The notes under the pieces were generated by a model. That model was not told where the DNA came from. It ran no database searches and saw only the letters and a list, made by a program, of their open reading frames with translations. A stretch of 64,000 nt of DNA from Myxococcota bacterium (lineage in GTDB: Bacteria > Myxococcota_C > UBA6777). Below, piece by piece: positions 2,418-55,313 of the stretch. How positions within the stretch are numbered: position 1 is the first letter of the stretch; the number at the start of each line of letters is the position of its first letter. The stretch is from NCBI GenBank assembly GCA_023150835.1, contig JAKLKB010000018.1, forward strand, positions 13,130 to 77,129, read 5' to 3'. A program made the translations under genes and the position numbers.

Positions 2418-3485
2418 TCACACCAGCACTTCCGCCAACAAAGCACACAGCCCGTGAGGCGTGGCCTCCTCTTTGTCTGTGAGAGCGAAGCGCAGCCCCG
2501 CTTGGTGTAGGTGATGTTGTGCTTCTTTGCTTGCCCGCGCCAAAACGGAACGCACCTTGTAGGCAGAGACGGTCTGCGTAGACAGCCCAGCGAGCGCCTT
2601 CCAGACCACCGAAGCAGCCCGATAGATCCGCAAATGATCGCGCCACACACAAGCGTCCCCTTGTTCTTGCGGATCCAAAAATCCCCACCAACGGGGGTGA
2701 TCCAACGCATATCGCTTCGACGGATAACGGCGTTTGCCTCCTTCGATCCCGTACGACTGCAACATCCCCGTCCTTTCGAGATCGCTCAACGCCAACAAGA
2801 TACCCCGTTCGGTATAGCCCGAATATCCGGCGATCTCTTTGACCGTACACGTTTCCTGCATCAGCAGCGCCAACAGCACCTCTGCTTTGCATCCCATCCC
2901 CACCAGATGACGCAACAAAAAACGTAATCCCGTCGATGCGTTGGCTAGATGCCCCCCAAAAGGTGCTGATCGCAGAACAAAAGCGCCACGCAACCAACCA
3001 TACCGAAGAAATATCGGATCGGTTTCTCCAAAAATGGGCAAAGATGTGCCGTCTTTGTTCAAAAACAAAGGTCGTGAAACAATGACATTTATGTCCGTAA
3101 AGCTCGCTATTTTCTCCCAACGCTTTTGCTTTCCCTGCTCAACCACAACAGACGCAAAGGCTCCTGCCAACGGATGCAAGTCTTTTTCTTCTTGCTCTTT
3201 CAACAAAGCCTGAAGCCGTGAGACATCGATCTCATCGCCCGCATAACAACACCACCGCAGAACTTCATCAAAGATCCGTGGCTCCGTTCGCCCCCACCGC
3301 CACGTTGAAAGCAACATCACTTCTGGATCGACAACAACACTGTTCGCCTCCACAGAGCGAACACCCGAAGAAATGCCTCCCCATCGCTCAGCGAGCGAAG
3401 CAACAAGATCTTTCGTAAGTTTTTGTATGGCCTGTAATACTTCTTCTTGATGATCGTACTTAGCCTCTAAGTTCATTTGCAACAT
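2418..3485 (-). CDS. Winged-helix protein paired with a nucleotidyltransferase
   Basis: 355 residues. The middle of the protein has a winged helix-turn-helix signature: 'VLLALLMQETCTVKEIAGYSG', then a recognition helix 'TERGILLALSDLERTG', then a basic wing 'GGKRRYP'. The N- and C-terminal thirds are not recognised. The start at 3485 lies inside the upstream nucleotidyltransferase gene, with 26 bp of overlap, so the two are translationally linked and transcribed leftward together. By analogy with AbiE-type and MNT/HEPN modules, a DNA-binding protein coupled to a nucleotidyltransferase often acts as antitoxin and autorepressor. That role is inferred from arrangement, not from a family match. 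A second Met three codons in is an alternative start. Confidence 0.65.
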   Translation of the reverse strand: MLQMNLEAKYDHQEEVLQAIQKLTKDLVASLAERWGGISSGVRSVEANSVVVDPEVMLLSTWRWGRTEPRIFDEVLRWCCYAGDEIDVSRLQALLKEQEEKDLHPLAGAFASVVVEQGKQKRWEKIASFTDINVIVSRPLFLNKDGTSLPIFGETDPIFLRYGWLRGAFVLRSAPFGGHLANASTGLRFLLRHLVGMGCKAEVLLALLMQETCTVKEIAGYSGYTERGILLALSDLERTGMLQSYGIEGGKRRYPSKRYALDHPRWWGFLDPQEQGDACVWRDHLRIYRAASVVWKALAGLSTQTVSAYKVRSVLARASKEAQHHLHQAGLRFALTDKEEATPHGLCALLAEVLV

Positions 3486-32266: not shown

Positions 32267-32863
32267 ATGTCCGAAGCCAACAAAGCTCAAAAAAAGAAAG
32301 CACAACTCCGCGAAGCCGCCTACCGCTGCTTTCAAAAGTCTGGCTATTACGAAACCACCGTCGATGATATCTGCCAAAAAGCCCAATGCTCAAAAGGCAG
32401 TTTCTATTATCACTACGCCTCCAAACAAGAAGTCTTTATCGATATCCTCCAAGTCTGGGCCCGCGAAGTCATCTCCGAGATGCTCAAGTCCTTTGAAGAT
32501 GCCCTCGCCAACGAAACCCCCATCGAAGCCGTCACCCAAGCCATCCAAAACGAAGTCCGACGCGGTCGCGCCATCGTCCCGCTCTGGCTCGAATTCACCA
32601 TCCACGCCCACCGCGACGAACTCGTCCGAAACGCCCTCTCCAAATTCTTCCGACGTACCCGCAACGCCATCTCCGAGATGCTCGAACCCCTCACCCGCGA
32701 TCGCTTCTCCGCAGAAGAAAGCGAAGGCATCGCCGCCGGCATCTTCGGTATGTACACCGGCCTGATTATGCAAGAACTCGCCGACCCCGAAACCGCCGAT
32801 GCCAGCGAGTCCGTCGCACGCATCATGCGCGTCATGTCCATTCTTCTCGCTCCCATCGCCTGA
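32267..32863 (+). CDS. TetR-family regulator, probable controller of the fatty acid synthase gene
   Basis: 198 residues from ATG 32267 (AAGGA 7 nt upstream). N-terminal helix-turn-helix: 'LREAAYRCFQKSGYYETTVD', 'DICQKAQCSKGSFYYHYASK', QEVFIDIL, a textbook TetR pattern. The C-terminal ligand domain is helical ('IVPLWLEFTIHAHRDELVRN', 'GIAAGIFGMYTGLIMQELAD'). It sits 132 bp upstream of the type I FAS gene, with a TetR-type palindrome in between. In corynebacteria and mycobacteria the fas gene is controlled by a TetR-type regulator, FasR; whether this is an orthologue or only an analogue cannot be told from the sequence. An acyl-CoA ligand is the natural guess. Confidence 0.85.
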   Translation: MSEANKAQKKKAQLREAAYRCFQKSGYYETTVDDICQKAQCSKGSFYYHYASKQEVFIDILQVWAREVISEMLKSFEDALANETPIEAVTQAIQNEVRRGRAIVPLWLEFTIHAHRDELVRNALSKFFRRTRNAISEMLEPLTRDRFSAEESEGIAAGIFGMYTGLIMQELADPETADASESVARIMRVMSILLAPIA

Positions 32864-32897
32864 TCTCCCTCCGCCATCCTTGATCCAAATTTTTTTA

Positions 32898-32964
32898 TTG
32901 ACATCCTTCACGAATTCAAGTACCGCCCTCTTCCATTGATTTTTCTTTAGACCGACCAGTCGGT
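32898..32964 (+). promoter_or_regulatory. FAS gene promoter region with TetR-type operator
   Basis: ACCGACCAGTCGGT at 32951-32964 is a perfect inverted repeat (ACCGAC / GTCGGT with a 2-nt centre), the form bound by many TetR proteins, 31 bp before the FAS start codon. TTGACA at 32898-32903 matches a -35 element exactly. The -10 at 17-nt spacing is poor (TACCGC at 32921). The operator would lie in the early transcribed region and block RNA polymerase. Confidence 0.75.
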
Positions 32965-32995
32965 TTTTGTTTGCCCAAAAGAGAAGAGGGATACG

Positions 32996-35900
32996 ATGCG
33001 AAGAACAGAAGAGCGCAACAACGGGAAAGCAGCGGTTGTTCAAGCGGCAGAGGAGGGTGCTTCTTTGTCGGCGTCAGCGAAAGAACAGCTGTGGGGTCTG
33101 GAGCGCACGTCGCAAGGGTTCGTGTCGTACGATGGAGAAGGGGGGCAACAAGGCGGCGCGTTGTACACAAGCGGTCAAGTGACTGCGGTGCGCTCGTTGT
33201 TGTCGCGTCTGGTGCTGGGGGAAAACCAAGCGGCGATCTCGTTTGCGGGACAAGGTTTCTATGATCTGGATCATCTTGCGGGTTTGATGCGGGGATCGCG
33301 GGAAGTACGGGCATTGTTGGAAGCCGCGACAGCACATCTAGAATCACTGGTCCACACACAAGAAGCGCGATGGAGCGGGTGTTATGCCGATGGCTTCGAT
33401 GTGATGGCTTGGTTGCAAGAGCCTTCGACGCGCCCGTCGGCAGCGGTATTACGGGGCGGTTGTTATTCACAGCCGCTGATCTTGATCCAACAAGTCGCTT
33501 TGTATGTCGCGTTGTACGAAGAAGGGATCCGCGAAGCCTTTGCGGTGGGGGCGATCCCCGTGATCTTTGGTCACTCTCAAGGCTTACAGACGGCGTTGTT
33601 GGTGGCGGAAAGCCCAAACGGACAGATCGAGACCGAACGGCTCTTGGCTTATGTAAGCTATGCCTTTTGGCAGGGTCTGGTGATGGAACAAGGATACACC
33701 GTCACGCCCGAACGTTCGGCGGAAGGGGCGTCACCGATGGCGGCGATCTCGGGTCCGTCGCTTGCGGTGTTGGAACAGGTGTTGGCGCGTTTCAATCGCA
33801 GTTTGCCCGAAGCAGCGCAAGTCGATATCTCGTTGTACAACACACGCAATCGCCATGTGGTGAGCAGCCATCCTGCGGTGCTTTCGACGCTACGCAAGGC
33901 GATGGAGGCCCAAGCCGAGCGCGAGGCTGCCCGAAAAAAAGCCGGGCGATTCGGAGGACAACCGCTACAGTTTACATGGGAATATCTCGAAGTCAGCGGC
34001 CCGTTTCATTCGCGTTATATGCGCGAAGGCTTTGAGCAGATGCAGCGAAAAGTCCGAGATATCGGCTTTGATTTTTCAAAAAGCCGCTTCTTTGTGGATG
34101 TGTTGTGTGGCCACACAGGGCGCGTGTTGACGCAACAGCCCGATGTATTGGATGAGTTGCTGCACAATCAGTTTGTGCGCTCGGTACGTTGGTCGCGGAT
34201 GTTGCGCAGTTTGGAGCCTTACAACGGAGTTTCGGATATCTTGGATCTCGGGCCGGGGGATGGGGTGATGCGCTTGACGGCTTCGGCCTTGCGTGGAACG
34301 GGACGACAAGTCCACACGCTTTACACCCAAGAAGGCCAAGACGCTTTCTTTCTACAAGCTCCGCAGACACCTCGTCCTGTGGCTTATTGCAGCTTTCTTC
34401 CGTCTGTTTCTCCCGATGAGGCAGGGGGATGGCGCGTCGAAAACCGATACACCCGCGCAACGGGCCATGCACCCGTGATCTTGCCGGGGATGACCCCCAC
34501 CACGTCGGATGTCCCGATCGTCGCCGCAGCGGCCAACCAAGGTTTTACCGCCGAGTTGGCGGGCGGCGGTCAAGTCAACGAACGGATCTTTTGGTTGCGG
34601 ATGGAAGAGCTTCAAGAGGCCCTTGGACCCGGGCGTGAAGTCGTCTTCAACGCGCTGTATCTCGATCCGTATCTGTGGGATCTTCATGTGCGCAAAACGG
34701 GCTTGGTGCAAAAAGCACGCAAGGCGGGTTATCCGATCTGTGGTGTGACGATCAGCGCAGGGATGCCCGAAGTCTCCGAAGCTGTCGCTCTTTTGGATGA
34801 GTTTGTGTCGTTGGGGATGTGGCTCAATGCTTTCAAGCCCGGGACGTTGGCGCAGATCCGTCACGTCGTCAAGATCGCACAAGCCGCACCGCACCATACG
34901 ATCTTTGTGCATCTCGAAGGCGGCAAGGCAGGCGGGCATCACTCGTGGGAAGATCTCGAACAGCTTTTGTTGGACGGCTATCACCTCTTGCGCGAACAGC
35001 CCAACCTCGTGCTTTGCGTGGGCGGCGGGATCGGAAGCGAGGCCCACGCCAATGCCCTGCTGACAGGCCGATGGTCTCTCGCTCACGATCTGCCACAGAT
35101 GCCCGTCGATGCGGTGCTTTTGGGGACGCTCACGATGGCTTGCAAAGAAGCCACCACCTCCGCACAAGTCAAACAAGCCCTTGTCGATGCTCCCGGCTGC
35201 GCGGGATGGGTCTTTGCAGGCCACGTCGAAGGCCAGACCACTTCGGGAAAAAGCGCACTCAACGCAGATATCCACTACATCGACAACGCTGCCTCCCGCT
35301 GTGGGCGTTTGTTGGATGAAGTCGCGGGCGATGCGATCGCAGTTCAAGCCCGACGCGATGAGATCATCGCGGCACTCAACCAAACCGCCAAGCCTTACTT
35401 TGGCGATCTCTCGACCATGACGTATCATGCCGTCGCGCAGCGCCTTGTCACGTTGATGGCCCTCGGACGTCACGGACGCTACGAAGACGGTCCTTGGCTT
35501 GATACGACGCACCGCACACGATTCGCAGACTTTTTGCAGCTTGCAGAGGCTCGATTGTGCGAACAAGAAGAAGGCCGCTTCGCATGCTTTTTTGGAACCT
35601 TCGAAGCGCTTGACCATCCACAGGCTTGTGTCGATCGGCTGCTTGCGCTGTATCCCCACGCAGCCCAGCAGATCTTGCATCCTGCGGATGTTCGGCGATT
35701 TTTGTATGATATCTGTGGCCGCGCTGGCAAGCCTGTTCCGTTCGTTCCCGTCATCGACGCCGAAGTGCGGCGTTGGTACAAAGCAGACTCGCTCTGGCAA
35801 GCCCACGATGATCGCTACAGCGCCGACCAAGTTCTGATCATCCCCGGCCCTGCGGCCCTTCAAGGACTCCGTAGCGCAGATCAGCCTGTGGCCTCGATGC

Positions 35901-38900
35901 TTGGGCGGTTTGTGGACGCACTCCAAGCAGAAGTCCAACAGATGCCCGCGCCTCCCCACGCCGAACGTTCACCGCTGTCTCTCTCCCGATGGCCCGAAGG
36001 TTGTACAGGTAGCGTGACGTTGTGCAGCGATCCCCATCCGACCGCCCCGCGCTACGAAGTGGTCCTGACGATCCCATCGGCCCTTCCAACAGAACCGACC
36101 GAATGGTTTGGATTCCTTCGCGAGGCTTTTACAGGCCCCCTGATCACCGCCATGACCTCGATCCGCCTCTACCAACAAGGCGGCTCACAGCCCAATCCCT
36201 TGCGCGAGCTGTGCGTGTGTGAAGCAGGCGCACAACTGCGTATGATCATGACCGAAGGACGGCGCATCCAGTCGCTTACCTATCATCCAAACAACACTGC
36301 GGCCCACGAAACCGTCCACCTTTCCTTACACACTGACCAAGCCAACGACGCCCACCTCCATCTCGATATCTCTCTTGCATCGGCCTTTACAACAGAGCCT
36401 GCCCTCTACAGGCTGCCTTTGCGCGTCCAAGACGGTATCTTGCTCGTCGATGCCCGCGAACAAGAACAAACCTTGCGCGACTTTTACCAACACGCGCTCT
36501 TTGGCCGTCTGTTGGCCCCTGTCGAAGCCTTTGCCCCCACCCACCACACCACCCACGCGGACCCCCAAAAGCTCCGAGGCTACGCGGTCTCCACAGGCTC
36601 TCATGGTGATCCGTCGCACCTGCCGATGAATATGGCCTTTTCTTTGGTCTGGGAGCCTCTCTTCCGCTTGCTTTCTGCCGAAGGGGTTTGCGAAGGGATC
36701 TTGCGACTTGTTCATCTTTCCCATCACGTCGAGATCGACGCTGGTTGGCCGATCCTCCCTCACCAAGCCGTCGATGTCGAAGCCCAGATCACACGCATCG
36801 AAAACACCGACACAGGCCGAAGCATCCACACCCGATGCACCCTCTCACGCAACGGTGCGCGCTGCGCGATCGTTGAATCGGCCTTTTTTGTGCGTGGCTT
36901 TTTTGGCCGAACAACCGACATCTTGCGCACCAAAGAGATCATCGACACCTCACTGATCTTGCGCGATCAAGGCAGCATCGACTTTTTGCTTGCACACGGA
37001 TGGCTGCATCGCACCTCCGACACCCCTCTGCACGTCGGCGATATCTTGCAACTGCGTGCGCTCCAAGAAGAACACCGCCCCCGAAAAGGTCTTGCGCATT
37101 TTGCCGCAACAGGTCAGATCTGGCGTGGTTCCCAACCGATCGCCACGCTCGCGCTCGATCTACGGGCAGCGCGCAAACTCCATCCTCTGCAAGCCCTTCT
37201 CCAAGCCTTCGCCCAAGAACAAGCCACCCCGCGCAAGCCTGTCACGCCCCGCATCCTTGCGCATACCGAGACCCAAGCCCCCCAATCCATGCAAACCTTT
37301 GCAGAAGTCAGCGGCGATCTCAACCCGATCCATCGCAGCTTGCTGTTTGCTCGGATGGGACGGCTCGATCGCCCGATCGTGCATGGGATGTGGACCGCTG
37401 CCCGCCTGCATAGCTTCTTGGTCGCCTCGGTGGTCGATGGCGAAGAAAGCCGCGTCCTTGATTACAAAGCCTCCTTCCTTGCGCCGCTTTTGCTTGGTGA
37501 ACGCTTGCGACTCGAAGCCACCCGCACAGCCGTCCAAGAGGGCGTCTTGTTCGTCGAGCTTACAGCTTCCGCCATGCGCGACGCCCAAGCCATCGCCGTT
37601 GTTCGCGCCGAAGCCAAAGTCAAGATGCCCCGCAGCGTCTATCTGTTCCCCGGCCAAGGCATCCAACAAAAAGGCATGGGCATGGAGGCTTACGCCCGCT
37701 CCAAAGCGGCGCGCAACGTCTGGGATCAAGCGGATGCTTATACACGCGAACATCTCGGATTCTCGATCTTGGAGATCGTGCGCAACAACCCCAAAGAGCT
37801 TCTCGTCCAAGGCCGCACCCACGTCCATCCCCAAGGCGTCTTGCATCTCACGCAGTTCACACAAGTCAGCATGGCTGTGATGGCGCAAGCACAAGTCGCA
37901 GAGCTCCGCGAGTCCGGGCTTTTGGACCCTGATGCGATCTTATGCGGTCACAGCGTCGGCGAATACAACGCCATCGGTGTGACAGGTATCCTCCCGCTGA
38001 CAGATGTCGTCGAGATCGTCTATCATCGGGGACTTGTGATGCACGCACTCGTCCCACGCGATGAATCGGGCGAAAGCGGCTACCGCATGGGCGTTCTTCG
38101 CCCTCATTACGCAGGAATGGATCACGCCCAAGCCGAAGCCCTTGTCGAGCAAGTCGCCAAACAAACCGGCCAGTTCTTGCAGATCGTCAACTACAACGTC
38201 CGAGGCCGTCAGTACTCCGTCACAGGGCAGATCGGCGCGCTTCGGCTTCTTGAGCAGCTTCTCGATCAGCGCGCAACACAGAAAAAGCCCCCCTACATCG
38301 AAGTCCCGGGCATCGATGTTCCCTTCCATTCGTCCGTCTTGTTCAACGGTGTCGACGACTTCCGCAAAACTTTGGAGGCGCGCTTCCCTCAAGATATCGA
38401 TGAACAACGACTCTTGGGTCGTTATATCCCCAACCTTGTCCCCAAACTCTTCTCTCTCGACAAGCCATACATCGAAGAAGTTCAACAGACCACTCAGTCG
38501 CCGATCCTAGAAAAAGTCCTTGCAGACTTCGCCGACTACGCCGCCACCCCCAAGCGCCTCGCACGTATCCTGCTCATTGAGCTGTTGGCATGGCAGTTTG
38601 CAAGCCCTGTCCGTTGGATCGAGACCCAAGAGCTGCTCTTCCAACGCCGTTCGCTCGGTGGGATCGAGATCCAGCGCGCTATCGAGATCGGCGTGGGCTA
38701 CCAGCCCACCTTGGCAAACATGGCGCGTTATTCCCACCAACTGCTCGGCCCTTCAGCTCCTGATATCGAGATCCTCAATATCGAAGCGGAAGCGGATCGC
38801 GTCTTCTTGCGCGACCAAGACACCCTGCCACCTCAAGCCCAAGATACCGCTGCTCCGGCCTCGATCCAGCCTCTCTCCGCTCAAAAGCCACAGCCCTCAC

Positions 38901-41900
38901 AACAGGCCACCTCCTCCGCTTCGCTCCAGCAACCATCACAACAGGCCATCCCATCGACAAACGCCGCCTCCCCCGTTTCGGTCGGCGCACCGCCACCGCC
39001 CGATCAGCCGCTTTCTGTGGCCGAAGGCGTGACTTTTGTCCTCGCAAGCCAAGCCCGTATCCGCCCCGATCAGCTTTCCATGCAAGAGACCCTCGATGAT
39101 CTCTTTGACGGCGTTTCATCGCGCCGCAACCAAGTCCTGCTCGACCTTGGCGCAGAGTTTCAGATGGGACCGATCGACGGGGCCCATGAAAAACCTTTGC
39201 GCGAACTGATCGCCGAGATCACCCGCCGCTGCCCTTCCTACAAAGCCCCCGGAAAATATATGCGCGCCACCCAAGATGATTCGATCAAACGAGTCTTCGG
39301 ACGCGCTGGACTGACGCGCAAAGAAGTGGAAAGCCACTTTGAACAACAATTCGGCCTTGGTTCGGGCTTGCGCGAGAGCGCGTTGTGTCTGCTCGCCTTG
39401 GAAAGCCGCGAAGGAGCCTCCGCTCGCGGCGGCAGCATGGGCTTGTTGCCCCAAGCCCTCCCATCCGACCGAAACACCGCCAAGACCTTCTTAGACGAAG
39501 CCGCCCTACGCATCGGACAGATCAAAGGTCTGACGATCAGCCGACAAGGCGCACACAGCACAGGGGGCGGAGCCTCCGTCGATGCCGCTGTCGTCCAAGA
39601 GCTTGAGTCCAAGATCCTCGGACCCAAGGGGATCTTGATGCAACAAGCCCGTGAGATCGCCGAACGTCTGGGGCATCCGATCGAGGCCGCAGCAAGCGGG
39701 CTTCCTGCGCAACACAATGAACAAGCCGAAAAGCTGGCTCTCTACGAAGCAGAACACGACAGCGAGTTTGTCGAATGGCTTCAACCGCGCTTTGATGCCA
39801 AAAAGCACGTCGCGCTGACTTCTTCGTGGGCGTCTGCTCGACGCGATGTGGCTCGATTGTTCTTTGATCTGCGAAACAACCGCATTGAGGCTTCCGAAGC
39901 CTTGGCACAAGTCGCCCGACTGGCCGCCTTCCACGAGGATATCACCCTCACACAAACCGCTTCTTGGTACGCAAAACTCGCCGAAGAGCAAGGCGACCTC
40001 CGTCTTGCAGGTTGGCTCCACCAGATCGCAGCGGGTGATGCGCCCCATACTCCGGCGTTTCAGCCGACGCGCCCCGCGCTCTCTTTGCAACAAGACGGCT
40101 CTTGGAGATACGCCGAGGCCGTATGCGATCAAGCCGATGCCCTCGACCGTTTTGTCGATGCCTTGTGGCCCAAAGATCGCCCTCCCCTTCTTCAAATCGG
40201 CGAACAAGGCGAATGGAACATCACTTTTTCCAAGCTCCTGTCCGAACACACCAAGCGGCCCTTTGATCTGCGCAACACGACCGCTCTGGTGACGGGTGCA
40301 AGCCCGGGATCGATCGCCTTGGCCTGTGTGCGCTTTCTTTTGCGCGGTGGAGCCCGTGTCATCGTCACCACCAGCACTTACAACAGCGATCGTGTACGCG
40401 AATACCGCGATCTCTTCGAGACTTCTGCCGTCCCGGGTGCAGAGCTCCATGTCGTCCCCTTCAACCAAGCCTCTTTCCAAGATGTCGAGTCCCTGATCCA
40501 CTGGCTGTTTTCCTCTGTCACCGAACAAGACGGAGCCAAAGTCCGCGTCGTGAAGCGCCCTTTTGCACCCGATATCGTGCTGCCTTTCGCCGCCATCAAA
40601 GATCTCGCCACGCTCGACAGCCTCCAAGCCCGCTCCAATGCCGTGATGCGTACGATGCTGCTCAGCGTAGAGCGCCTTGTGACGGGCATCGCCACCCATT
40701 ACAAGCGTCACGGTCTCCCCGCGATGCCTTGCCATATCCTGCTGCCGCTTTCGCCAAATCACGGGAGCTTCGGTGGTGACGGCGTGTACGCCGAAACCAA
40801 AGCTGCACTCGAAGTCCTCCTGACCAAGTGGGAAAGTGAACGCGAAGCGTGGGGCAAAGCCACCACCTTGTGCGCGGCCCGCATCGGATGGGTCCGTGGG
40901 ACGGGCTTGATGGATGCCAACAATCTTGTGGCTCACCACCTCGAACAGCGCACAGGCATACGCACTTTTTCGAGCGATGAGATGGGCTGGTTGTTGACCG
41001 CTCTGTGTACCCATGCGGCCAGAAAACAAGCCCTCCACCAGCCGCTTGAGGCCGATCTAACGGGCGGTTTCCAGCGGATCAAAGCCCTTCGTCAGACTGT
41101 TTCGACGATCCGCACCGAACTCGAACACCAAGCCGCTCGCGTCAAGCAACGCCTGACCCTCGAAAACGCCGAAGCCACCTTGCTTGGCGCGCCCACCGAT
41201 GCGCCTTTGCTTGTCGATGCGCTTCCTCATTGGCCTGCGACCTTACACCCTCGATTGACGCCTGCCACAGCCAAAAAGCCCGTCCATTGGCCCAAACGCG
41301 GCCTTTCCTTGCGCGAGATGGTGGTGATCGTTGGCATGGGCGAGATCGGCCCTTGCGGAAGCGCCCGTACCCGCTACGAGATGGAGCTCGGTCCATCCCT
41401 TTCTCCTGCTGCTGTGCTTGAGTTGGCTTGGATCACGGGCTTCGTCACCTACGAAGAAAACGGCAAAGCGGGGGTTTGGAAAGATCGCCAAACCAACACC
41501 GTGATCGCAGAACACGAGATCGCCGCTCGTTATCGTGAAAGCGTCCGCAAACATCTCGGGCTGCGCTGGATCGAGCCTGAGACCGTAGGCATCGACCCCA
41601 ACGCTCTTTCTATGTACACCTCTGTTTTTCTGGAAAAAGATTTTACTTTTTCGGTCAGCTCCGAAGAAGAAGCCCGTACTTTCTTTGCGACGGCCCCCGA
41701 AAAAACCCGTGTTCACTTTGATGCCCAAGACGGACAATGGCGCATCACACGCCTCGCTGGAACCGAAGTTAAAGTCCCCCGCCAAGTCCGCCTCCAACGT
41801 CAAGTCATGGGCCAGATCCCCAAAGGCTTCGACTTTGCGCGATTCGGTCTCTCCAACGATATGATCGAACGCATCGATCGCGTCGCTCTCTTCAACCTGA

Positions 41901-43225
41901 TCGCCACCGTCGATGCCTTCTTGTCTGCTGGCATCGAACCCGAAGAACTCTTGCGATGGCTCCATCCTGCCCGCGTCGCAAACACCCAAGGCTCGGGCAT
42001 CGGTGGGATGCGCAGCTTGGCCCGTCTCTACCGCGATCACGTCCTCGATATCGAGCGCCAGCCTGATATCCTCCAAGAGACCTTGATCAACGTCGCAGCG
42101 GCCTATGTGGTCCAAAGCTACGTCGGAAGCTACGGGCCGATGTCTCACCCTGTCGCCGCCTGCGCAACCGCTGCCGTCTCTCTCGAAGAAGCCACCGACA
42201 AGATCTTGGCAGGAAAGGCCGACTTTGTAGTCGCGGGTGGGTACGATGACGTCGGGCGCGAAAGCCTTGTGGGCTTCGGTGATATGAACGCCACCGCAAA
42301 CACCGATGAGATGGTCGCGATGGGGCTTGAACCCGCCCAGATGTCCCGCCCCAACGACACGCGGCGACGCGGCTTTGTCGAGGCCCAAGGCGGCGGAACC
42401 TTCTTGCTCGCTCGCGCCGATATCGCCCTACAGATGGGTCTCCCCGTGTACGGTGTGGTCGGATACTGCGGCTCTTTTGGTGACGGTATCCACAAATCCA
42501 TCCCCGCCCCCGGCATGGGCGCACTCGCTTGTGCCATCGGAGGCCAACAATCCCCGCTCGCTCGTTCACTCCAACACTTCGGCCTGACCGCTGATGATAT
42601 CGCCGTCGTGTACAAACACGACACTTCCACCGCTGCCAACGACCCCAACGAAAACGAACTCCATCACCGCATCCAACGAGCGCTCGGACGCAGCGAAGGA
42701 AACCCGCTCTTTGCCGTCTCTCAAAAAAGTCTGACAGGTCACGCCAAAGGCGGAGCCGCTGCGTGGCAGATCATCGGGCTTTGCCAGACTCTTCTCCAAG
42801 GCCGCATCGCAGGAAACCCCAATCTCGACAACGTCGATCCGATGATGCGTTCTTTTTCTCATCTCGCTTTCTCAAACAAAACCCTTGACGTAGGTGAGAC
42901 GCTGCCGCTGCGTGCAGGGATGCTGACCAGCCTCGGTTTCGGCCACGTCAGCGGTATCGCTCTTTTGCTTCACCCCGATGCCTTCTTGGCCCAACTCTCC
43001 GAAGAACAAGCCACCGCTTACCACTCCCGCTGTCAGCAGCGCCACCACCAGACCACCCAACGCTGGGCCTCCGTCTTCATGGGACAAACACCCTTGTTCT
43101 CTCGCCGAAACCTCCGCCGCTTTGAAGCCCAAGACGGCTCTCCCGAACAAGCCGCCCAAGAAGCCGCCATGCTCCTGAACCCCCACGCTCGCCTTGATAC
43201 CTCACGCGGCTTCTATTCTTTGTAA
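32996..43225 (+). CDS. fas: Type I fatty acid synthase, single 3409-residue polypeptide
   Basis: Domain order matches mycobacterial/corynebacterial FAS-I and the joined fungal beta+alpha chains. Acetyltransferase (about 60-430): GHSQG with Ser194. FMN enoyl reductase (about 485-860): 'VILPGMTPTTSDVPIVAAAA' and GGKAGGHHSWED. Hot-dog dehydratase (about 1150-1540): 'FAEVSGDLNPIHRS' and RPIVHGMWTA. Malonyl/palmitoyl transferase (from about 1545): LFPGQG and GHSVGE with Ser1653. ACP: 'DGVSSRRNQVLLDLGAEF', where Ser2041 aligns with the fungal phosphopantetheine serine. Ketoreductase: ALVTGASPGS at about 2430, with Tyr2598/Lys2602 in YAETK. Ketosynthase (from about 2775): Cys3056, His3208, His3249; the 41-residue His-His spacing equals that in yeast. 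All catalytic residues are present. Unlike fungi there is no fused phosphopantetheinyl transferase; acpS follows separately. It should make long-chain acyl-CoA de novo. Confidence 0.95.
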   Translation: MRRTEERNNGKAAVVQAAEEGASLSASAKEQLWGLERTSQGFVSYDGEGGQQGGALYTSGQVTAVRSLLSRLVLGENQAAISFAGQGFYDLDHLAGLMRGSREVRALLEAATAHLESLVHTQEARWSGCYADGFDVMAWLQEPSTRPSAAVLRGGCYSQPLILIQQVALYVALYEEGIREAFAVGAIPVIFGHSQGLQTALLVAESPNGQIETERLLAYVSYAFWQGLVMEQGYTVTPERSAEGASPMAAISGPSLAVLEQVLARFNRSLPEAAQVDISLYNTRNRHVVSSHPAVLSTLRKAMEAQAEREAARKKAGRFGGQPLQFTWEYLEVSGPFHSRYMREGFEQMQRKVRDIGFDFSKSRFFVDVLCGHTGRVLTQQPDVLDELLHNQFVRSVRWSRMLRSLEPYNGVSDILDLGPGDGVMRLTASALRGTGRQVHTLYTQEGQDAFFLQAPQTPRPVAYCSFLPSVSPDEAGGWRVENRYTRATGHAPVILPGMTPTTSDVPIVAAAANQGFTAELAGGGQVNERIFWLRMEELQEALGPGREVVFNALYLDPYLWDLHVRKTGLVQKARKAGYPICGVTISAGMPEVSEAVALLDEFVSLGMWLNAFKPGTLAQIRHVVKIAQAAPHHTIFVHLEGGKAGGHHSWEDLEQLLLDGYHLLREQPNLVLCVGGGIGSEAHANALLTGRWSLAHDLPQMPVDAVLLGTLTMACKEATTSAQVKQALVDAPGCAGWVFAGHVEGQTTSGKSALNADIHYIDNAASRCGRLLDEVAGDAIAVQARRDEIIAALNQTAKPYFGDLSTMTYHAVAQRLVTLMALGRHGRYEDGPWLDTTHRTRFADFLQLAEARLCEQEEGRFACFFGTFEALDHPQACVDRLLALYPHAAQQILHPADVRRFLYDICGRAGKPVPFVPVIDAEVRRWYKADSLWQAHDDRYSADQVLIIPGPAALQGLRSADQPVASMLGRFVDALQAEVQQMPAPPHAERSPLSLSRWPEGCTGSVTLCSDPHPTAPRYEVVLTIPSALPTEPTEWFGFLREAFTGPLITAMTSIRLYQQGGSQPNPLRELCVCEAGAQLRMIMTEGRRIQSLTYHPNNTAAHETVHLSLHTDQANDAHLHLDISLASAFTTEPALYRLPLRVQDGILLVDAREQEQTLRDFYQHALFGRLLAPVEAFAPTHHTTHADPQKLRGYAVSTGSHGDPSHLPMNMAFSLVWEPLFRLLSAEGVCEGILRLVHLSHHVEIDAGWPILPHQAVDVEAQITRIENTDTGRSIHTRCTLSRNGARCAIVESAFFVRGFFGRTTDILRTKEIIDTSLILRDQGSIDFLLAHGWLHRTSDTPLHVGDILQLRALQEEHRPRKGLAHFAATGQIWRGSQPIATLALDLRAARKLHPLQALLQAFAQEQATPRKPVTPRILAHTETQAPQSMQTFAEVSGDLNPIHRSLLFARMGRLDRPIVHGMWTAARLHSFLVASVVDGEESRVLDYKASFLAPLLLGERLRLEATRTAVQEGVLFVELTASAMRDAQAIAVVRAEAKVKMPRSVYLFPGQGIQQKGMGMEAYARSKAARNVWDQADAYTREHLGFSILEIVRNNPKELLVQGRTHVHPQGVLHLTQFTQVSMAVMAQAQVAELRESGLLDPDAILCGHSVGEYNAIGVTGILPLTDVVEIVYHRGLVMHALVPRDESGESGYRMGVLRPHYAGMDHAQAEALVEQVAKQTGQFLQIVNYNVRGRQYSVTGQIGALRLLEQLLDQRATQKKPPYIEVPGIDVPFHSSVLFNGVDDFRKTLEARFPQDIDEQRLLGRYIPNLVPKLFSLDKPYIEEVQQTTQSPILEKVLADFADYAATPKRLARILLIELLAWQFASPVRWIETQELLFQRRSLGGIEIQRAIEIGVGYQPTLANMARYSHQLLGPSAPDIEILNIEAEADRVFLRDQDTLPPQAQDTAAPASIQPLSAQKPQPSQQATSSASLQQPSQQAIPSTNAASPVSVGAPPPPDQPLSVAEGVTFVLASQARIRPDQLSMQETLDDLFDGVSSRRNQVLLDLGAEFQMGPIDGAHEKPLRELIAEITRRCPSYKAPGKYMRATQDDSIKRVFGRAGLTRKEVESHFEQQFGLGSGLRESALCLLALESREGASARGGSMGLLPQALPSDRNTAKTFLDEAALRIGQIKGLTISRQGAHSTGGGASVDAAVVQELESKILGPKGILMQQAREIAERLGHPIEAAASGLPAQHNEQAEKLALYEAEHDSEFVEWLQPRFDAKKHVALTSSWASARRDVARLFFDLRNNRIEASEALAQVARLAAFHEDITLTQTASWYAKLAEEQGDLRLAGWLHQIAAGDAPHTPAFQPTRPALSLQQDGSWRYAEAVCDQADALDRFVDALWPKDRPPLLQIGEQGEWNITFSKLLSEHTKRPFDLRNTTALVTGASPGSIALACVRFLLRGGARVIVTTSTYNSDRVREYRDLFETSAVPGAELHVVPFNQASFQDVESLIHWLFSSVTEQDGAKVRVVKRPFAPDIVLPFAAIKDLATLDSLQARSNAVMRTMLLSVERLVTGIATHYKRHGLPAMPCHILLPLSPNHGSFGGDGVYAETKAALEVLLTKWESEREAWGKATTLCAARIGWVRGTGLMDANNLVAHHLEQRTGIRTFSSDEMGWLLTALCTHAARKQALHQPLEADLTGGFQRIKALRQTVSTIRTELEHQAARVKQRLTLENAEATLLGAPTDAPLLVDALPHWPATLHPRLTPATAKKPVHWPKRGLSLREMVVIVGMGEIGPCGSARTRYEMELGPSLSPAAVLELAWITGFVTYEENGKAGVWKDRQTNTVIAEHEIAARYRESVRKHLGLRWIEPETVGIDPNALSMYTSVFLEKDFTFSVSSEEEARTFFATAPEKTRVHFDAQDGQWRITRLAGTEVKVPRQVRLQRQVMGQIPKGFDFARFGLSNDMIERIDRVALFNLIATVDAFLSAGIEPEELLRWLHPARVANTQGSGIGGMRSLARLYRDHVLDIERQPDILQETLINVAAAYVVQSYVGSYGPMSHPVAACATAAVSLEEATDKILAGKADFVVAGGYDDVGRESLVGFGDMNATANTDEMVAMGLEPAQMSRPNDTRRRGFVEAQGGGTFLLARADIALQMGLPVYGVVGYCGSFGDGIHKSIPAPGMGALACAIGGQQSPLARSLQHFGLTADDIAVVYKHDTSTAANDPNENELHHRIQRALGRSEGNPLFAVSQKSLTGHAKGGAAAWQIIGLCQTLLQGRIAGNPNLDNVDPMMRSFSHLAFSNKTLDVGETLPLRAGMLTSLGFGHVSGIALLLHPDAFLAQLSEEQATAYHSRCQQRHHQTTQRWASVFMGQTPLFSRRNLRRFEAQDGSPEQAAQEAAMLLNPHARLDTSRGFYSL

Positions 43226-43244
43226 AAATGTCGGATCTATCTTA

Positions 43245-43697
43245 ATGAGTTTTCAACTGTCTTTTCATCCTCAAGGGCGTGTCCTTGGTGTCGGTTTCGA
43301 TGTCGTTTCGGTTGCGGCTTTCTCTCTACAGCTTCAAGATCCAGCCTCTTGTTTTGTCGAAGAAGTCTTTACCTTAGCAGAACGCCGCATCGCTCGCTCA
43401 CGCGCAGGGCAACAGCCCGCACGCCACTTCGCGGCCCGCTTTGCTGCCAAAGAAGCCCTCATCAAAGCGTGGTCTTCGGCCCTTTTCGGCCAACCTCCCC
43501 CCTTGCCGCATCTCTCCTTACGAGAGATCGAAGTGATCCACGATGCTTATTCTCGCCCTGCCCTACGTTTTCACGGTCAAGTCTCGGATGCCATTCAAGC
43601 ACTTTTCCCCTATACAACCCACCTCTCTCTCTCCCACGATGGCGACACCGCCGCTGCCATCGTCTTGATCGAACAGCTCACCGCTGCTTCGCGTTAG
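43245..43697 (+). CDS. acpS: Holo-[acyl-carrier-protein] synthase paired with FAS-I
   Basis: 150 residues from ATG 43245, 19 bp after the FAS stop. The ribosome binding site is weak, consistent with coupling to FAS translation. Motifs: 'VLGVGFDVVSVAAFSLQL', with the metal-binding Asp, and 'HFAARFAAKEALIKAW', with the Glu/Lys pair of the phosphopantetheinyl transferase family, then 'LSLSHDGDTAAAIVLIE' at the C-terminus. It transfers 4'-phosphopantetheine from CoA to the ACP serine of the upstream synthase. The same fas-acpS order is known from Mycobacterium (Rv2524c-Rv2523c) and Corynebacterium. The last 30 bp are involved in a tail duplication shared with the next gene. Confidence 0.9.
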   Translation: MSFQLSFHPQGRVLGVGFDVVSVAAFSLQLQDPASCFVEEVFTLAERRIARSRAGQQPARHFAARFAAKEALIKAWSSALFGQPPPLPHLSLREIEVIHDAYSRPALRFHGQVSDAIQALFPYTTHLSLSHDGDTAAAIVLIEQLTAASR

Positions 43698-46575: not shown

Positions 46576-48258
46576 TTATTCGTCAAGATCTACGTCTTTT
46601 TCTTCTTTCTTCTCTGGTTTTTTCTCTTCTCTTTTTTTCTCTTTTGCGGTTTCTTTGCAAAGACAGCGTCCCTGCTCACCTTTTGGACCCATCGGTCCCT
46701 TGTCACCTTTCAACCCTTTCGGACCCATCGGTCCCTTGTCACCTTTCGGACCCATCGGTCCCTTGTCACCTTTCGGACCCATCGGTCCCTTATCACCTTT
46801 CGGACCCATCGGCCCCTTATCACCTTTCGGACCCTGTTCGCCTCTCAGTCCTTTCGGTCCCATCGGTCCTTGCGCGCCTTGTTCACCCTGTTGGCCTCGC
46901 TGACCGACCGGACCTTGCTCACCTTGTTCTCCTTTTGTCCCCATCGGACCTTGCCGCCCCATTCGGCCCTGCTCACCTTTCGGACCTTGCTCACCTTTTG
47001 GCCCCTGTTCACCTCTCGGGCCTTGCTCACCTTTCGGTCCCATCGGACCTTGCGGGCCTTGCAGCCCAACGGAGCCTTGCTCACCTTTTGGTCCAACAGA
47101 GCCGTTCTCGCCTTTTGGACCTCGCGTTCCCATCGGTCCGACCGCTCCCGTAGCGCCTCGCTCGCCTTTCGGACCTTGTGGTCCTTGCAACCCCATCGGC
47201 CCTCGCGTTCCTGCCGCTCCAGAAACACCCTGCTCGCCTTTCGGGCCTTGCGGCCCAACGGGGCCTTGCTCGCCTTTTGGACCTTGCGCTCCTTGCGGTC
47301 CCATCGGTCCTTTCTCACCTTTCGGGCCTTGCTCGCCTTTCGGCCCCTGCGGTCCTTGCGGACCTTGCGGCCCAACGGGGCCTTGCTCACCTTTCGGTCC
47401 TTGTGGGCCGATCTTTCCAGCGATACCCTGCTCGCCTTTTGGCCCCTGTGGGCCGATCTTTCCAGCGATACCCTGCTCACCTTTTGGACCTTGCGGGCCG
47501 ATCTTTCCAGCGATACCCTGCTCACCTTTTGGACCTTGCGGCCCCTGCGGACCTTGTAATCCTTGTGGACCCTGCGGTCCTTGCGGACCTTGCAGACCTT
47601 GCGAACCTCTTGGCAGAAGAACGTGTTGTATTTGCGAGCCGCAGCGAAAACGAATGACTGTACCGCGTGCCTCTTGTGAAACGCCGTCGATTTGACAGGG
47701 CGTGCCTTCGTTTCCTTTTTCTCCTTGCAAGACCATGACTTGCGCCAACGTTTTTTGCTGGCTGCCAAAGAATCCCACCAAAACAAACAGCCCTGCACGC
47801 AATGTTTGCGGCAGATGGATCTCGCGTTTCATCGAAGTTCCTCCTTGAAGAATTTGAAAACCTTGCTCGCGTCCGTAATGTTGTTTGGGTTCACGCTCCG
47901 AGACAAGAGAAACACCCGTCAGCACGTCAAGATGTTCGCCATGTATCGTCCACCGCGAACGAAACCGCCGCGAAGCCATCTTTGCAAAAGACGGCTTTGC
48001 TTGCTCAGAAGAAAAAACGATGGGGGACAACGTACCCTCACCTTCGATAGAGAGGACTTTTGCGTTGTGAAAATGACGAATCATTTCTGATGCGCAATGT
48101 CCTTTTTGACATACCAAGCCTGACAGACAATCTGTATCACGCTTGCAAGGTCGCCCAAGCCCACCGTCTTGGCAACCCGTCACAAACAGCGACAGAAAAA
48201 ACCACAGCCACACGCTGCGCTGTAATCCAATCCAAACACCTCGAACCCTCGCTCTCAT
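46576..48258 (-). CDS. Collagen-like lipoprotein with about 100 Gly-X-Y triplets
   Basis: 560 residues from ATG 48258 (AGGAGG 5-6 nt upstream). The signal peptide ends in lipobox VTGC, then a small Cys-rich module ('[20 protein letters not shown]'), a beta domain of about 150 residues, then an uninterrupted collagen-like stretch dominated by GPQ, GPK, GEQ and GPM triplets, and a Lys/Glu tail after 'RCLCKE'. Triplets rich in Pro, Lys and Glu/Gln form stable triple helices in bacterial collagens without hydroxyproline. Expected to be a trimeric surface fibre anchored by lipid. The DNA shows 27-bp unit repeats, so the rod length probably varies between strains. Confidence 0.85.
46685..47600 (-). 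repeat. 27-bp-based tandem repeats coding the collagen-like rod
   Basis: At 46685-46840 near-identical 27-bp units (GGACCCATCGGTCCCTTGTC on the plus strand, then ACCTTTC) repeat about five times. At 47405-47530 a 57-bp unit with GGGCCGATCTTTCCAGCGAT repeats three times. These are the most recent expansions inside the rod. Confidence 0.85.
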
Positions 48259-48331
48259 CAACCCCTCCTGTACCATGCGCTCGCCATCCGCCAAAGCAGA
48301 TCAACTCTCTTGATAAAACTCACGCTCCCAA

Positions 48332-50123: not shown

Positions 50124-51545
50124 TTATGGCTGTTTGCAAGCGCCCAACGACTGAACCGAAACGCCCAATCGTGCGGCTTCGCAATCGTTACTGTACGTTT
50201 TACCGTCACAACCGCACACAGGCTTGTATTCTCCACGACAACCTGTGGGCTTGGGCATACAAACCCCGGGATGATCGGCGGCTCCGCACATCGCGGTCAA
50301 GCTGTACTGACAATACTGATCGTCAGGGCAAGAGTTATCGACGCCGGGAGGAACAAGCCCACCGCATGACTTCCCAGTACAAGGCATCTTTGAGCAAAGG
50401 GCGCTTCCACCTCGGCAGGTGCAAGTATTACAGCCGTCTCCTGCGGGGAAAGACTCACCTTCTTTGTAACGTTGGCCGTTGTATACGCAAACACCCGGCT
50501 GGCTTTTGCATTCGCCCTCGTATTGTACAGAAAGGCCCGCCATCGCGGCATCACAAGCATTGCTATAAGTCTTTCCATCGCAGCCACACACAGGCTGATG
50601 GATCAGGTTGCAGCTTTTGGGCTTATCAACACAAACACCCGTTCCATCGTCAAATCCGCAGCCTTTTTCGATCTTGCAATACTTCCCATCGGCACAGCGA
50701 AGTCCTGCTTCCCCTCCACAAAACGATTCTGCGCAAGCTTCATCCGTACAAGCCACTTTTCCTTTGAAGCACGAACACTTGCTTCCTTTATCACAGAACG
50801 ATTCTCCGTCTTTGTAGATCTTACCGTTGAACTCGCACTGTTGAGGTGTTGCACAAGCGCCGATCTTGGCTGCGGATGTTCCTGCTGCGTTGGCTGCGCA
50901 CTCGTTTTCGTACGTTTTCCCGTCGCATCCACAAACAGGCGCATAATACTCGGGGCATCCTGAGGGCTTGACTTTGCAAACACCGGGATGATCGGCAGCA
51001 CCGCACATCTTGTCCAACGTATAGTGGCAATACTGCTCGCTTGGGCAAGTGTTGTCGACGCCGGGTGCAACGTGACCACCGCAAGATTTTTCCGTACAAT
51101 TTTTCTTTGTGCAACTCACCCCACCGCCACTACAAACACAAGTGTTACAACCATCCGCCGCAGGAAACGTGCTGCCTTCTTTGTATGTTTTGCCTTGAAA
51201 CAAGCAATCTTTGGCGCACACCATCAAGGTACACATCGGCACACCGTTGCTGCACATACATGAATTGCAGCCGTCAGATGCAGGAAAAGACTCACCTTCT
51301 TTGTATGTTTTTCCTATATACGCACAGGTTTTTGGAAGACAGGCTTTCTCTGTACAACTGATTGCACCTTGCTGACAAGTACAAGTGTTGCAGCCATCGG
51401 ATGCAGCAAAGCTGCTGCCCTGCGCGTATTCTTTGCCATTGTATCGGCACACCCCCTCAGGTGTGGTCACACCGCAGCCGCTCCCCAAAACTCCAAGCAC
51501 CCACAAACCCAACGCCACCCAAAACTGCACTTTGACACGAAGCAT
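50124..51545 (-). CDS. Cys-rich lipoprotein with VWC-like and Kazal domains
   Basis: 473 residues. The signal peptide ends in GSGC, a lipobox-like site. The mature protein alternates two eukaryote-type modules. Five VWC/pacifastin-like repeats share 'C.Y.GK.Y.EG..F...DGCN.C.C..G...CT...C'. Three Kazal repeats share 'PVCGCDGKTYSNAC' with the expected Cys spacing. Two copies of 'SCGG.VPPGVDNSCP.DQYC' link them, with 'GAADHPGVC'. Kazal domains inhibit serine proteases, so a surface protease inhibitor or adhesion protein is likely; in a predatory or biofilm-forming bacterium it could protect against host or self proteases. The repeat of whole modules suggests internal duplication. Confidence 0.82.
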   Translation of the reverse strand: MLRVKVQFWVALGLWVLGVLGSGCGVTTPEGVCRYNGKEYAQGSSFAASDGCNTCTCQQGAISCTEKACLPKTCAYIGKTYKEGESFPASDGCNSCMCSNGVPMCTLMVCAKDCLFQGKTYKEGSTFPAADGCNTCVCSGGGVSCTKKNCTEKSCGGHVAPGVDNTCPSEQYCHYTLDKMCGAADHPGVCKVKPSGCPEYYAPVCGCDGKTYENECAANAAGTSAAKIGACATPQQCEFNGKIYKDGESFCDKGSKCSCFKGKVACTDEACAESFCGGEAGLRCADGKYCKIEKGCGFDDGTGVCVDKPKSCNLIHQPVCGCDGKTYSNACDAAMAGLSVQYEGECKSQPGVCVYNGQRYKEGESFPAGDGCNTCTCRGGSALCSKMPCTGKSCGGLVPPGVDNSCPDDQYCQYSLTAMCGAADHPGVCMPKPTGCRGEYKPVCGCDGKTYSNDCEAARLGVSVQSLGACKQP

Positions 51546-52901: not shown

Positions 52902-55313
52902 CTAATGTTTTCGTGATGAGAATCTTCGCCAGATCGCCCACCCGATCGCCAGCGGGATCAGCAAGAAAAATCCACCCGCCGAAAACGCTGCACCTGCCGC
53001 TCGAAACATCGCGGCCAACCCTTGCTCAAAGACTTCGTCGTGGATCAGGTATGTCCATGTCGAGGAGGGCCGCTCCATGCCCGAGCGATCCAGCACAAAC
53101 CCTTGGGCCTCCCAACGAGAAGAGCGAAAGGTGCGCAACACACGTCGCGGGATCTCTTCTTCCATCGCTTCGTACGCGGCGATCGCTTGTTGGCAAAAGA
53201 CCACAAAGGGATCATGCCCTGCGGCGCTTTGTAAATGGATCCCTTCTCGGATATCTGCCAGCCGTGCGAGGTGCTCTGCCCAACACGCATCCAGATGAAA
53301 CAACGCAACTTCCCGAACCATCGACTGCAACGCCGCTTCTCCCACTTCTCCAAGCAGGCGATCTACCAAAGCAGGCTCCGCCTCTTTTAACACTTCATTC
53401 CAGTCTTTTTCTCCAAGCAATAGGTCTTTTCGCATCTCAGAAAACGCCAAACGCTGCTCTTCAACAAAAGACGAATACCGAAACAGCGTCTGGCGGATCG
53501 TATAATTTTGCCCTTCGACGATGCGTTGTGTGCGCTCCACCGCTTTCAACAGAGCAGGGTTATCGAGTGGTTCGCCTTCTTCTGTGGGCAAAAAGCGCTT
53601 GGGTATGGAGTCGATCACACGAAAACGCTGCATCAGATCGTCTTCTAGGCTGATAAAAAAACAAGACGAACCCGGATCGCCTTGTCTTCCTGATCGACCG
53701 CGTAGCTGATCGTCGATCCGCACGCTCTCATGGCGATTTGTGCCGATCACATACAGCCCCCCAGCCTTGACCACCGCTGCTCTCTCTGCTTCGTCGGCTC
53801 CCCCCAACTTGATATCCACGCCGCGCCCGGCCATATTCGTGGAGATCGTCACCGCAGCCAAACGCCCTGCTTGTGCGATGATCTCCGCTTCTCGATCATC
53901 GGTTCGTGCATTTAAGACTTGGTGAGATATCCCTAAAATATGTAATCGTTTAGAGATCAATTCTGATTCTTCAACACTACATGTTCCGACAAGAACAGGC
54001 CGACCTTGTTTCTGACAAGCTTGGACGGCTTGCAAGATGGCGTCGTGCTTGGCTTGTTTTGTTGCGTACAGGCGATCAGGTTCATCCACGCGGATACAAG
54101 GGCGATACGTGGGAAGAACAACCACAGACGAACCATAAAACAAAGCAAACTCGGCTTGGGCGGGGCGCGCTGTTCCTGTCATGCCTGCGATCTGCTCGTA
54201 TTGCCGCATCAAATGTTGCAGCGCGATCGAGCCAAGGATCTGCCCTTCGGGTTGCAAGGCCAAGCCTTCTTTCGCTTCGAGGGCTGCTTGGATCCCGTCG
54301 GGCCATTGGCGATCTTCGACCACGCGCCCTGTCCACTCATCGACAAGCTCGATTTTTCCGTCTCGTACGATGTAATCCACATCTTTGTGCAGCAAGATCA
54401 ACGCATGCAGCGCCACATGGATCCCAGCCAACAACGCCTGATTTTCAGACGCATGCAAGGAACCACACCCCAAACGTTCTTCAAGATGCGCAAGACCTTC
54501 TTCTGTCAGGTATACCAAACGCTGGAATTCATCTGTCCGAATGTGACGCTCTAACACCAGCTCTTTTACTAACGCGGCCAATCGGTGGGGTTCTGCGCGT
54601 GTATCCCGCTTTCCTCCCGCGATCACCAACGGGATGCGCGCCTCATCGATCAAGATCGAATCCGCCTCATCCACGATCGCAAACGAAAAGGGCCGATGCA
54701 CCATGGCCTCCGAAGATTGCACAAGCTGATCACGCAAAAAATCAAATCCTGCTTCTTTGGCTGTTGCATACGTGATCTCCGCGGCCCACGCAGCTTTTCG
54801 CTCTGCGGGCGTCAGGTCTTTTTGAATACAACCCACAGAAACACCCAAAAAATCGAAGACGGCTCCCATCCATCGGGCATCACGTTGTGCCAGATAGTCA
54901 TTAAACGTCAGGATATGCACTCCCTTTCCCTGCAACGACCGCAAAAAAGCAGGCATCACCGCCGCAAGTGTTTTGCCTTCCCCCGTTTGCATCTCCACGA
55001 TCTTGCCTTGGTGCATCACGATTCCCGCCATCATCTGCGTATCAAACGGACGCAAACCCACGCACCGATCCGCCACTTCGCGCACCAACGCAAACGCCTC
55101 GACCAACAGAGCATCCAACGCTCTCCCCGTCGATACCGCCTGACGCAAACGCGCAGCGCGTTCTTTCAACGAAGCGTCCTGCTCTTGCTTCAACCCGCCT
55201 TCAAGCGCACGAATCTGCTCCAACAGCGGCGCATACACTCTGGTATCATAGGCGATGGGTTCTTCGCGAAGGCGACTCAGCCATCGACGAAACCTTCCGG
55301 GGATCGGCTGCAT
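52902..55313 (-). CDS. SecA paralogue with C-terminal membrane helix
   Basis: 803 residues. ATPase motor parts are intact: 'GIVMHQGKIVEMQTGEGKTL' (Walker A at 111-115), 'HILTFNDYLAQRDA', 'AIVDEADSILIDEARIPLVI' (DEAD at 215-218), 'GMTGTARPAQAEF', 'AAVTISTNMAGRGVDIKLGG' and 'ESVRIDDQLRGRSGRQGDPG'. The preprotein-binding and helical domains are present ('YTIRQTLFRYSSFVEEQRL', 'WAEHLARLADIREGIHLQSA'). It lacks the C-terminal zinc-binding CxCx8CH tail of housekeeping SecA and instead ends in a predicted membrane helix at about 775-797 with Arg/Lys after it. It is probably an accessory SecA serving special substrates, or a membrane-tethered motor. No SecY or substrate gene is adjacent. Confidence 0.85.
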   Translation of the reverse strand: MQPIPGRFRRWLSRLREEPIAYDTRVYAPLLEQIRALEGGLKQEQDASLKERAARLRQAVSTGRALDALLVEAFALVREVADRCVGLRPFDTQMMAGIVMHQGKIVEMQTGEGKTLAAVMPAFLRSLQGKGVHILTFNDYLAQRDARWMGAVFDFLGVSVGCIQKDLTPAERKAAWAAEITYATAKEAGFDFLRDQLVQSSEAMVHRPFSFAIVDEADSILIDEARIPLVIAGGKRDTRAEPHRLAALVKELVLERHIRTDEFQRLVYLTEEGLAHLEERLGCGSLHASENQALLAGIHVALHALILLHKDVDYIVRDGKIELVDEWTGRVVEDRQWPDGIQAALEAKEGLALQPEGQILGSIALQHLMRQYEQIAGMTGTARPAQAEFALFYGSSVVVLPTYRPCIRVDEPDRLYATKQAKHDAILQAVQACQKQGRPVLVGTCSVEESELISKRLHILGISHQVLNARTDDREAEIIAQAGRLAAVTISTNMAGRGVDIKLGGADEAERAAVVKAGGLYVIGTNRHESVRIDDQLRGRSGRQGDPGSSCFFISLEDDLMQRFRVIDSIPKRFLPTEEGEPLDNPALLKAVERTQRIVEGQNYTIRQTLFRYSSFVEEQRLAFSEMRKDLLLGEKDWNEVLKEAEPALVDRLLGEVGEAALQSMVREVALFHLDACWAEHLARLADIREGIHLQSAAGHDPFVVFCQQAIAAYEAMEEEIPRRVLRTFRSSRWEAQGFVLDRSGMERPSSTWTYLIHDEVFEQGLAAMFRAAGAAFSAGGFFLLIPLAIGWAIWRRFSSRKH

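Follow-up and report, generated by a model that had tools for sequence, protein, structure and literature searches.

The window, a 64,000-nucleotide stretch of a contig from a Myxococcota bacterium, carries a gene whose product, judged by its domains and motifs, is a complete single-chain microbial type I fatty acid synthase (FAS-I). We regard it as highly likely that this protein, with an activity predicted from its sequence, is the native FAS-I of its lineage, where it probably has a housekeeping function. In trees of the aligned proteins the actinobacterial FAS-I enzymes are nested within the myxococcotal diversity, and the yeast FAS attaches among the deep lineages of the latter; 'myxococcotal' refers here to proteins of the neighbouring phylum, named by the NCBI labels of the relatives. 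Papers of 2015 (PMC4631590) and 2022 (PMC9260719) limit FAS-I among bacteria to the CMN group or Corynebacteriales, and place Corynebacteriales as the bacterial sister to the fungal enzymes. A search of open-access journal papers turned up no previous record of FAS-I in Myxococcota. The enzyme is of a known kind; as far as could be checked, what is new is how widely it occurs, the fungal-like structure and the place outside the actinobacterial clade. The features of the locus are (window positions):

32267..32863, + strand: TetR-family regulator gene, 198 aa (TetR_N 4e-13, TetR_C_6 7.7e-10)
32951..32964, no strand assigned: putative palindromic TetR-type operator ACCGACCAGTCGGT, 32 bp upstream of the FAS ATG
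32996..43225, + strand: single-chain type I fatty acid synthase, 3409 aa (Pfam, PDB sequence comparison, motifs)
33266..34285, + strand: acetyl/starter acyltransferase (AT), about residues 91-430 (PF16073, PF22690; GHSQG)
34433..35920, + strand: enoyl reductase region (ER), about residues 480-975 (PF08354; PGMTPTT and GGKAGGHHSWED)
35948..37639, + strand: linker and dehydratase region (DH), residues 985-1548 (PF01575; modelled fungal beta-subunit fold)
37640..38785, + strand: malonyl/palmitoyl transferase (MPT), about residues 1549-1930 (PF00698; GHSVGEY)
38999..39403, + strand: acyl carrier protein domain (ACP), residues 2002-2136 (PF18325; phosphopantetheine site GVSSRRNQ)
39704..40156, + strand: FAS-I helical structural domain, residues 2237-2387 (PF18314)
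40268..41275, + strand: ketoacyl reductase (KR), about residues 2425-2760 (alignment to fungal FAS alpha KR; SPNHGSFG, YAETK)
41312..42955, + strand: ketosynthase (KS), about residues 2773-3320 (PF00109, PF02801; CATA, KHDTST, GHAKGG)
43245..43697, + strand: acpS, holo-ACP synthase (phosphopantetheinyl transferase), 150 aa (NCBIfam NF000831)

The FAS gene is one open reading frame with an ATG start and no internal stop. In the N-terminal half Pfam assigned SAT/AT to residues 91-309, the FAS AT central domain to 247-324 and the Fas1-AflB helical domain to 635-969 (E 3.9e-96); the middle contained the MaoC dehydratase (1422-1516) and the acyl transferase/MPT (1548-1745), and the C-terminal part Fas_alpha_ACP (2002-2136), the FAS_I helical domain (2237-2387) and KS (2911-3277). 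The FAS-I-specific domains (Fas1-AflB-like helical, Fas_alpha_ACP and FAS_I_H) all exceeded the Pfam cut-offs, and the order AT-ER-DH-MPT-ACP-KR-KS, in one reading direction, is that of the microbial (fungal/CMN) type I FAS. Every active-site motif was found exactly once in the protein, which makes the catalytic set complete: GHSQG of AT at residue 192, GGKAGGHHSWED of ER at 642, GDLNPIHRS of DH at 1440, GHSVGEY of MPT at 1651, GVSSRRNQ of ACP at 2039, SPNHGSFG and YAETK of KR at 2586 and 2598, and AACATA, KHDTST and GHAKGG of KS at 3054, 3207 and 3248. The top PDB sequence match was an actinobacterial FAS-I, aligned nearly end to end (4v8v, 2148 bits), followed by fungal FAS alpha and beta. 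Pfam detected no fused PPT/ACPS domain in the FAS reading frame; acpS is a separate gene. Identity as a PUFA synthase or type I PKS was rejected (PfaA 36.6 bits against a cut-off of 1010, PKS models far under cut-off). Comparison with the 95% identical FAS of the congener KLAP109 indicated purifying selection (dN/dS 0.10). By homology the protein would form a homohexameric barrel. The first-pass annotation had described a complete single-chain FAS-I with all catalytic residues, adjoined by acpS and preceded by a tetR gene; the Pfam domains, the singly occurring motifs, the acpS gene 19 bp downstream and the TetR gene upstream bear this description out.

Relationships were analysed in an IQ-TREE phylogeny (LG+C20, 755 columns) of KR-KS segments cut by blast, in which the sole fungal row is one yeast sequence, identical in its letters to PDB 2uv8. 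Actinobacterial FAS-I formed one clade (100/99 or 100/100) to which the window protein does not belong, and the window protein grouped with its own phylum (99/97 or 99/98, trees with and without long-branch rows). The remaining bacterial rows were not one group, their monophyly including the window's phylum being rejected (AU p 0.0096). Without the long-branch rows, the actinobacterial clade together with four myxococcotal rows (98/96) lay inside a 24-row crown (100/100), yeast attached near other myxococcotal lineages, and non-actinobacterial monophyly was rejected with an AU p of 0.0024. A KS tree rooted with unrelated ketosynthases of the same genome repeated the nesting (p 0.004; the outgroup branches, 5-10, are extremely long). 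Deep groups were recovered again in an ER tree without fungi, where one row of the actinobacterial sample (L113, genome G112) stood apart from the other actinobacterial rows; its ER-DH spacing of 758 is of the myxococcotal type, and it may represent a second transfer or a misbinned contig. Phylogeny of the KS and ER domains had been proposed at the outset as a check; the KR-KS trees placed the window FAS outside the actinobacterial clade, the fungal side being covered by the one row in the trees other than that of ER.

Sequence and predicted structure were also compared with the fungal enzymes. The yeast KR-KS fragment scored 585-608 bits to five myxococcotal FAS proteins, 524 bits to the window FAS and 329-434 bits to actinobacterial FAS. 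Deep myxococcotal rows have GGNSSRRNQ or GGNSARRNQ at the ACP site; the window FAS has DGVSSRRNQ there, and most actinobacterial rows have either DGASSRRNQ or DGVSSRRNQ. The spacing from ER to DH is 794 residues in the window FAS versus 647-669 in seven actinobacterial proteins, and residues 960-1430 matched fungal beta chains with E 1e-7 versus E 0.01 for actinobacterial FAS. When an AlphaFold2 model of residues 985-1537 (pLDDT 85.7) was superposed on fungal beta subunits, 514 residues matched (Z 39.7, rmsd 2.8); with mycobacterial FAS-I the match covered 364-368 residues (Z 27.9), a difference indicating that about 150 residues of fungal-like structure present here are reduced or missing in the mycobacterial enzyme. 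The ER-DH region of the window protein thus models as one that keeps a fungal-beta-like structure which mycobacterial FAS-I lacks or has in reduced form.

The nesting of the actinobacterial enzymes and the attachment of yeast could instead be a long-branch or sampling artefact covering a true history of separate old clades. The yeast end branch of 2.3, the single fungal row and the length of the outgroup KS branches speak for such an artefact, but we think it unlikely: the topology held whether the long-branch rows were kept or dropped, with a mixture model and for KS by itself, the deep groups recurred in ER, and the shared wording of the ACP site and the fungal-like spacing are concordant with it. 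The actinobacterial enzymes look like a shortened, derived branch of the family rather than its source.

FAS-I was searched for across genomes with Pfam model PF08354. In the window's phylum it was found in four of the five genomes examined, the fifth being 86% complete. The neighbouring, larger phylum had PF08354 in 37 of 377 sampled genomes, and the HKST-UBA45 phylum (assembly labelled Actinomycetota) in 9 of 246. A contig scan returned 11 clear relatives, several of them lake MAGs, e.g. from Baikal. Four very divergent, shorter FAS-I proteins (L149-L152, from G516, G458, G281 and G551; 2930-3092 aa) have long branches, and the standard ACP motif was not found in three of them. We tentatively propose, as a scenario that may or may not hold, that FAS-I diversified in Myxococcota and sister lineages and reached Actinobacteria and fungi by ancient transfer, the window enzyme being structurally intermediate and single-chain. 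The large, older-looking FAS-I set in Myxococcota and the sister phylum alters the sampling behind the question of fungal FAS origin and hints at the source of the mycobacterial enzyme. It also offers biochemists and structural biologists natural synthases that are single-chain yet fungal-like in structure.

Whether FAS-I replaces or supplements the dissociated (type II) system was addressed with curated models. In the window genome (G000) FabF (316 bits versus 494), FabH, FabZ and AcpP all scored under the curated cut-offs, which is the outcome of the search for fabF, fabH and acpP suggested in the first-pass annotation. FabH, FabZ and AcpP were under the cut-offs in all five genomes of the window's phylum. 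Among eight further FAS-I genomes FabH failed in seven; DTSAM18 has FabH plus FAS-I. In the neighbouring phylum FabZ exceeded the cut-off in 5 of 40 FAS-I-negative versus 1 of 37 FAS-I-positive genomes. Since FabZ was under the cut-off in 35 of the 40 FAS-I-negative genomes, its absence is not diagnostic of FAS-II loss, and we discarded it as a marker because it does not separate FAS-I-positive from FAS-I-negative genomes there. Because none of FabF, FabH, FabZ and AcpP exceeded its cut-off in G000, FAS-I probably replaces FAS-II in this genome, one of the two options raised beforehand; the missing markers may partly reflect a divergent FAS-II.

The other KS genes of G000 comprise a beta-branching-like cassette, a double-KS protein and two giant ORFs resembling a PUFA-type synthase. 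The cassette (L039, G000:C99:12000-30000) encodes KS, AT, a FabA-like protein, an SDR, HMG-CoA synthase and two enoyl-CoA hydratases, and is similar to polyketide beta-branching cassettes; its KS scored highest with a polyketide KS model. We give a low probability to FAS-I being a supplement to a divergent FAS-II missed by the curated models, and not the main synthase. In its favour, divergent proteins can escape curated cut-offs, most FAS-I-negative genomes of the neighbouring phylum lack FabZ too, and C99 has stand-alone KS, AT, FabA-like, SDR and ACP-like genes. Against it, four FAS-II markers fail jointly in G000, and the HMG-CoA synthase and two enoyl-CoA hydratases of C99 are the make-up of polyketide beta-branching, in agreement with the fit of its KS.

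Production of a specialised lipid (a secondary metabolite) instead of bulk fatty acids is improbable. The genomes are large and rich in PKS-like genes, and the operon is self-contained and probably TetR-controlled, but the full domain set includes KR, DH and ER, the gene is kept across the phylum under strong purifying selection, and its neighbours in the window are not biosynthetic.

The acpS gene starts 19 bp past the FAS stop codon (AcpS equivalog NF000831, 142.9 bits versus cut-off 124). At each of the 37 loci covering that stretch an acpS gene lies directly 3' of FAS in the same orientation, eight loci of the actinobacterial sample among them; being common to all FAS-I loci examined, the arrangement is not specific to actinobacterial FAS-I. 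In the window's and neighbouring phyla, 19 loci have a tetR gene like that of the window on the upstream side of FAS; none of the nine loci of the actinobacterial sample has one there. Of the claim that the locus reproduces mycobacterial and corynebacterial fas, the fas-acpS order thus stands and the adjoining tetR does not. The window TetR failed the FasR model (NCBIfam NF053731, 44.4 bits versus cut-off 330). In one genome (G004) a very long ORF with biotin-carboxylase and biotin-carrier domains (L010:2-3508, - strand) lies directly downstream of fas-acpS, which suggests that malonyl-CoA supply is linked to FAS-I there.

The only perfect match to ACCGACCAGTCGGT within the window is the palindrome at 32951-32964. 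Across 816 kb of FAS loci the pattern ACYGACNNGTCRGT, which this palindrome fits, was matched strictly 14 times, in every case ahead of FAS or tetR-FAS: ten matches are near the start of FAS, and the other four lie 530-700 bp farther out, at loci where tetR precedes FAS. A related palindrome is bound by a Thermus TetR protein controlling fatty acid genes (PMC7022988).

Transfer of the fas-acpS cassette from an actinobacterium is very improbable. Its identical gene order and the mycobacterial top PDB matches would suit such an origin, but actinobacterial rows are nested among myxococcotal ones and the window protein falls outside them with its own phylum; yeast FAS is nearer to the window protein than to actinobacterial FAS, and the fungal-like structure is reduced in mycobacteria. 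The description of an actinobacterial-style cassette in an unusual host is not supported: among the relatives the family is common and has diverged deeply, the actinobacterial enzymes are nested in that diversity, and the window protein keeps fungal-like structure.

The window is part of a 77-kb contig in a 7.56-Mb, 93% complete genome, in which a search detected no 16S gene, and its 27.3-47.8 kb segment is collinear with a contig of the congener 'Myxococcota bacterium KLAP109'. GC and GC3 around FAS resemble those of neighbouring genes, in agreement with the earlier remark that its codon use is native, and the Myxococcota-like host was likewise upheld by the Myxococcota labels of the named relatives; seven other named relatives belong to the neighbouring phylum, five labelled within Myxococcota and two Pseudomonadota by NCBI. 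Although most of the genomes are metagenome assemblies, the idea that the contig is a contaminant or was misbinned, coming from an actinobacterium (the case named beforehand as refuting) or a eukaryote, is practically excluded by the 77-kb contig with flanks collinear over 20 kb, the neighbour-like GC/GC3 and the occurrence of the family in dozens of independent assemblies, once on a 485-kb contig. The window also encodes, on the - strand, a 572-aa protein with collagen triple-helix repeats (46576-48294), a protein in which von Willebrand C, Kazal and pacifastin domains are combined (50124-51545) and an 803-aa SecA-like ATPase (52902-55313). Protease-inhibitor modules of the von Willebrand C/Kazal/pacifastin type are best known in animals.

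In the proposed mechanism AT would load acetyl groups and MPT would load malonyl and unload acyl-CoA, while KS, KR, DH and ER would cycle iteratively on one tethered ACP activated by the adjoining acpS product. The product of the upstream tetR gene probably binds the palindrome ahead of FAS and would tune the fas-acpS operon, its ligand most likely being acyl-CoA. The fas gene would have been inherited within, or exchanged among, myxococcotal lineages.

On the regulatory side, the operator of the TetR-type repressor PaaR of Burkholderia, ACCGACCGGTCGGT (PMC2770484), differs by one centre base from ACCGACCAGTCGGT; PaaR regulates phenylacetate catabolism rather than fatty acid synthesis. The mycobacterial fas-acpS genes form a bicistronic operon under FasR, a TetR-family activator responsive to long-chain acyl-CoA (PMC7652896). 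TetR-family control over fas-acpS would be shared with the window, whereas FasR is an activator that was not seen adjoining fas in actinobacterial loci and whose model the window TetR does not match. Fungal FAS (yeast 2uv8, Thermomyces 4v58) shares with the window FAS the domain order across beta then alpha, the ER-DH fold of the predicted model and the KR wording NHG.FGGDG, but has two chains and a C-terminal PPT, where the window has one chain, a separate acpS and the ACP site DGVSSRRNQ. FAS-I of Mycobacterium and Corynebacterium has the same single chain, domain order, lack of a fused PPT and acpS directly downstream. The window FAS differs from it in being about 300 residues longer, with the wider ER-DH spacing, the fungal-like ER-DH region, the adjoining tetR gene and a place outside the actinobacterial clade.
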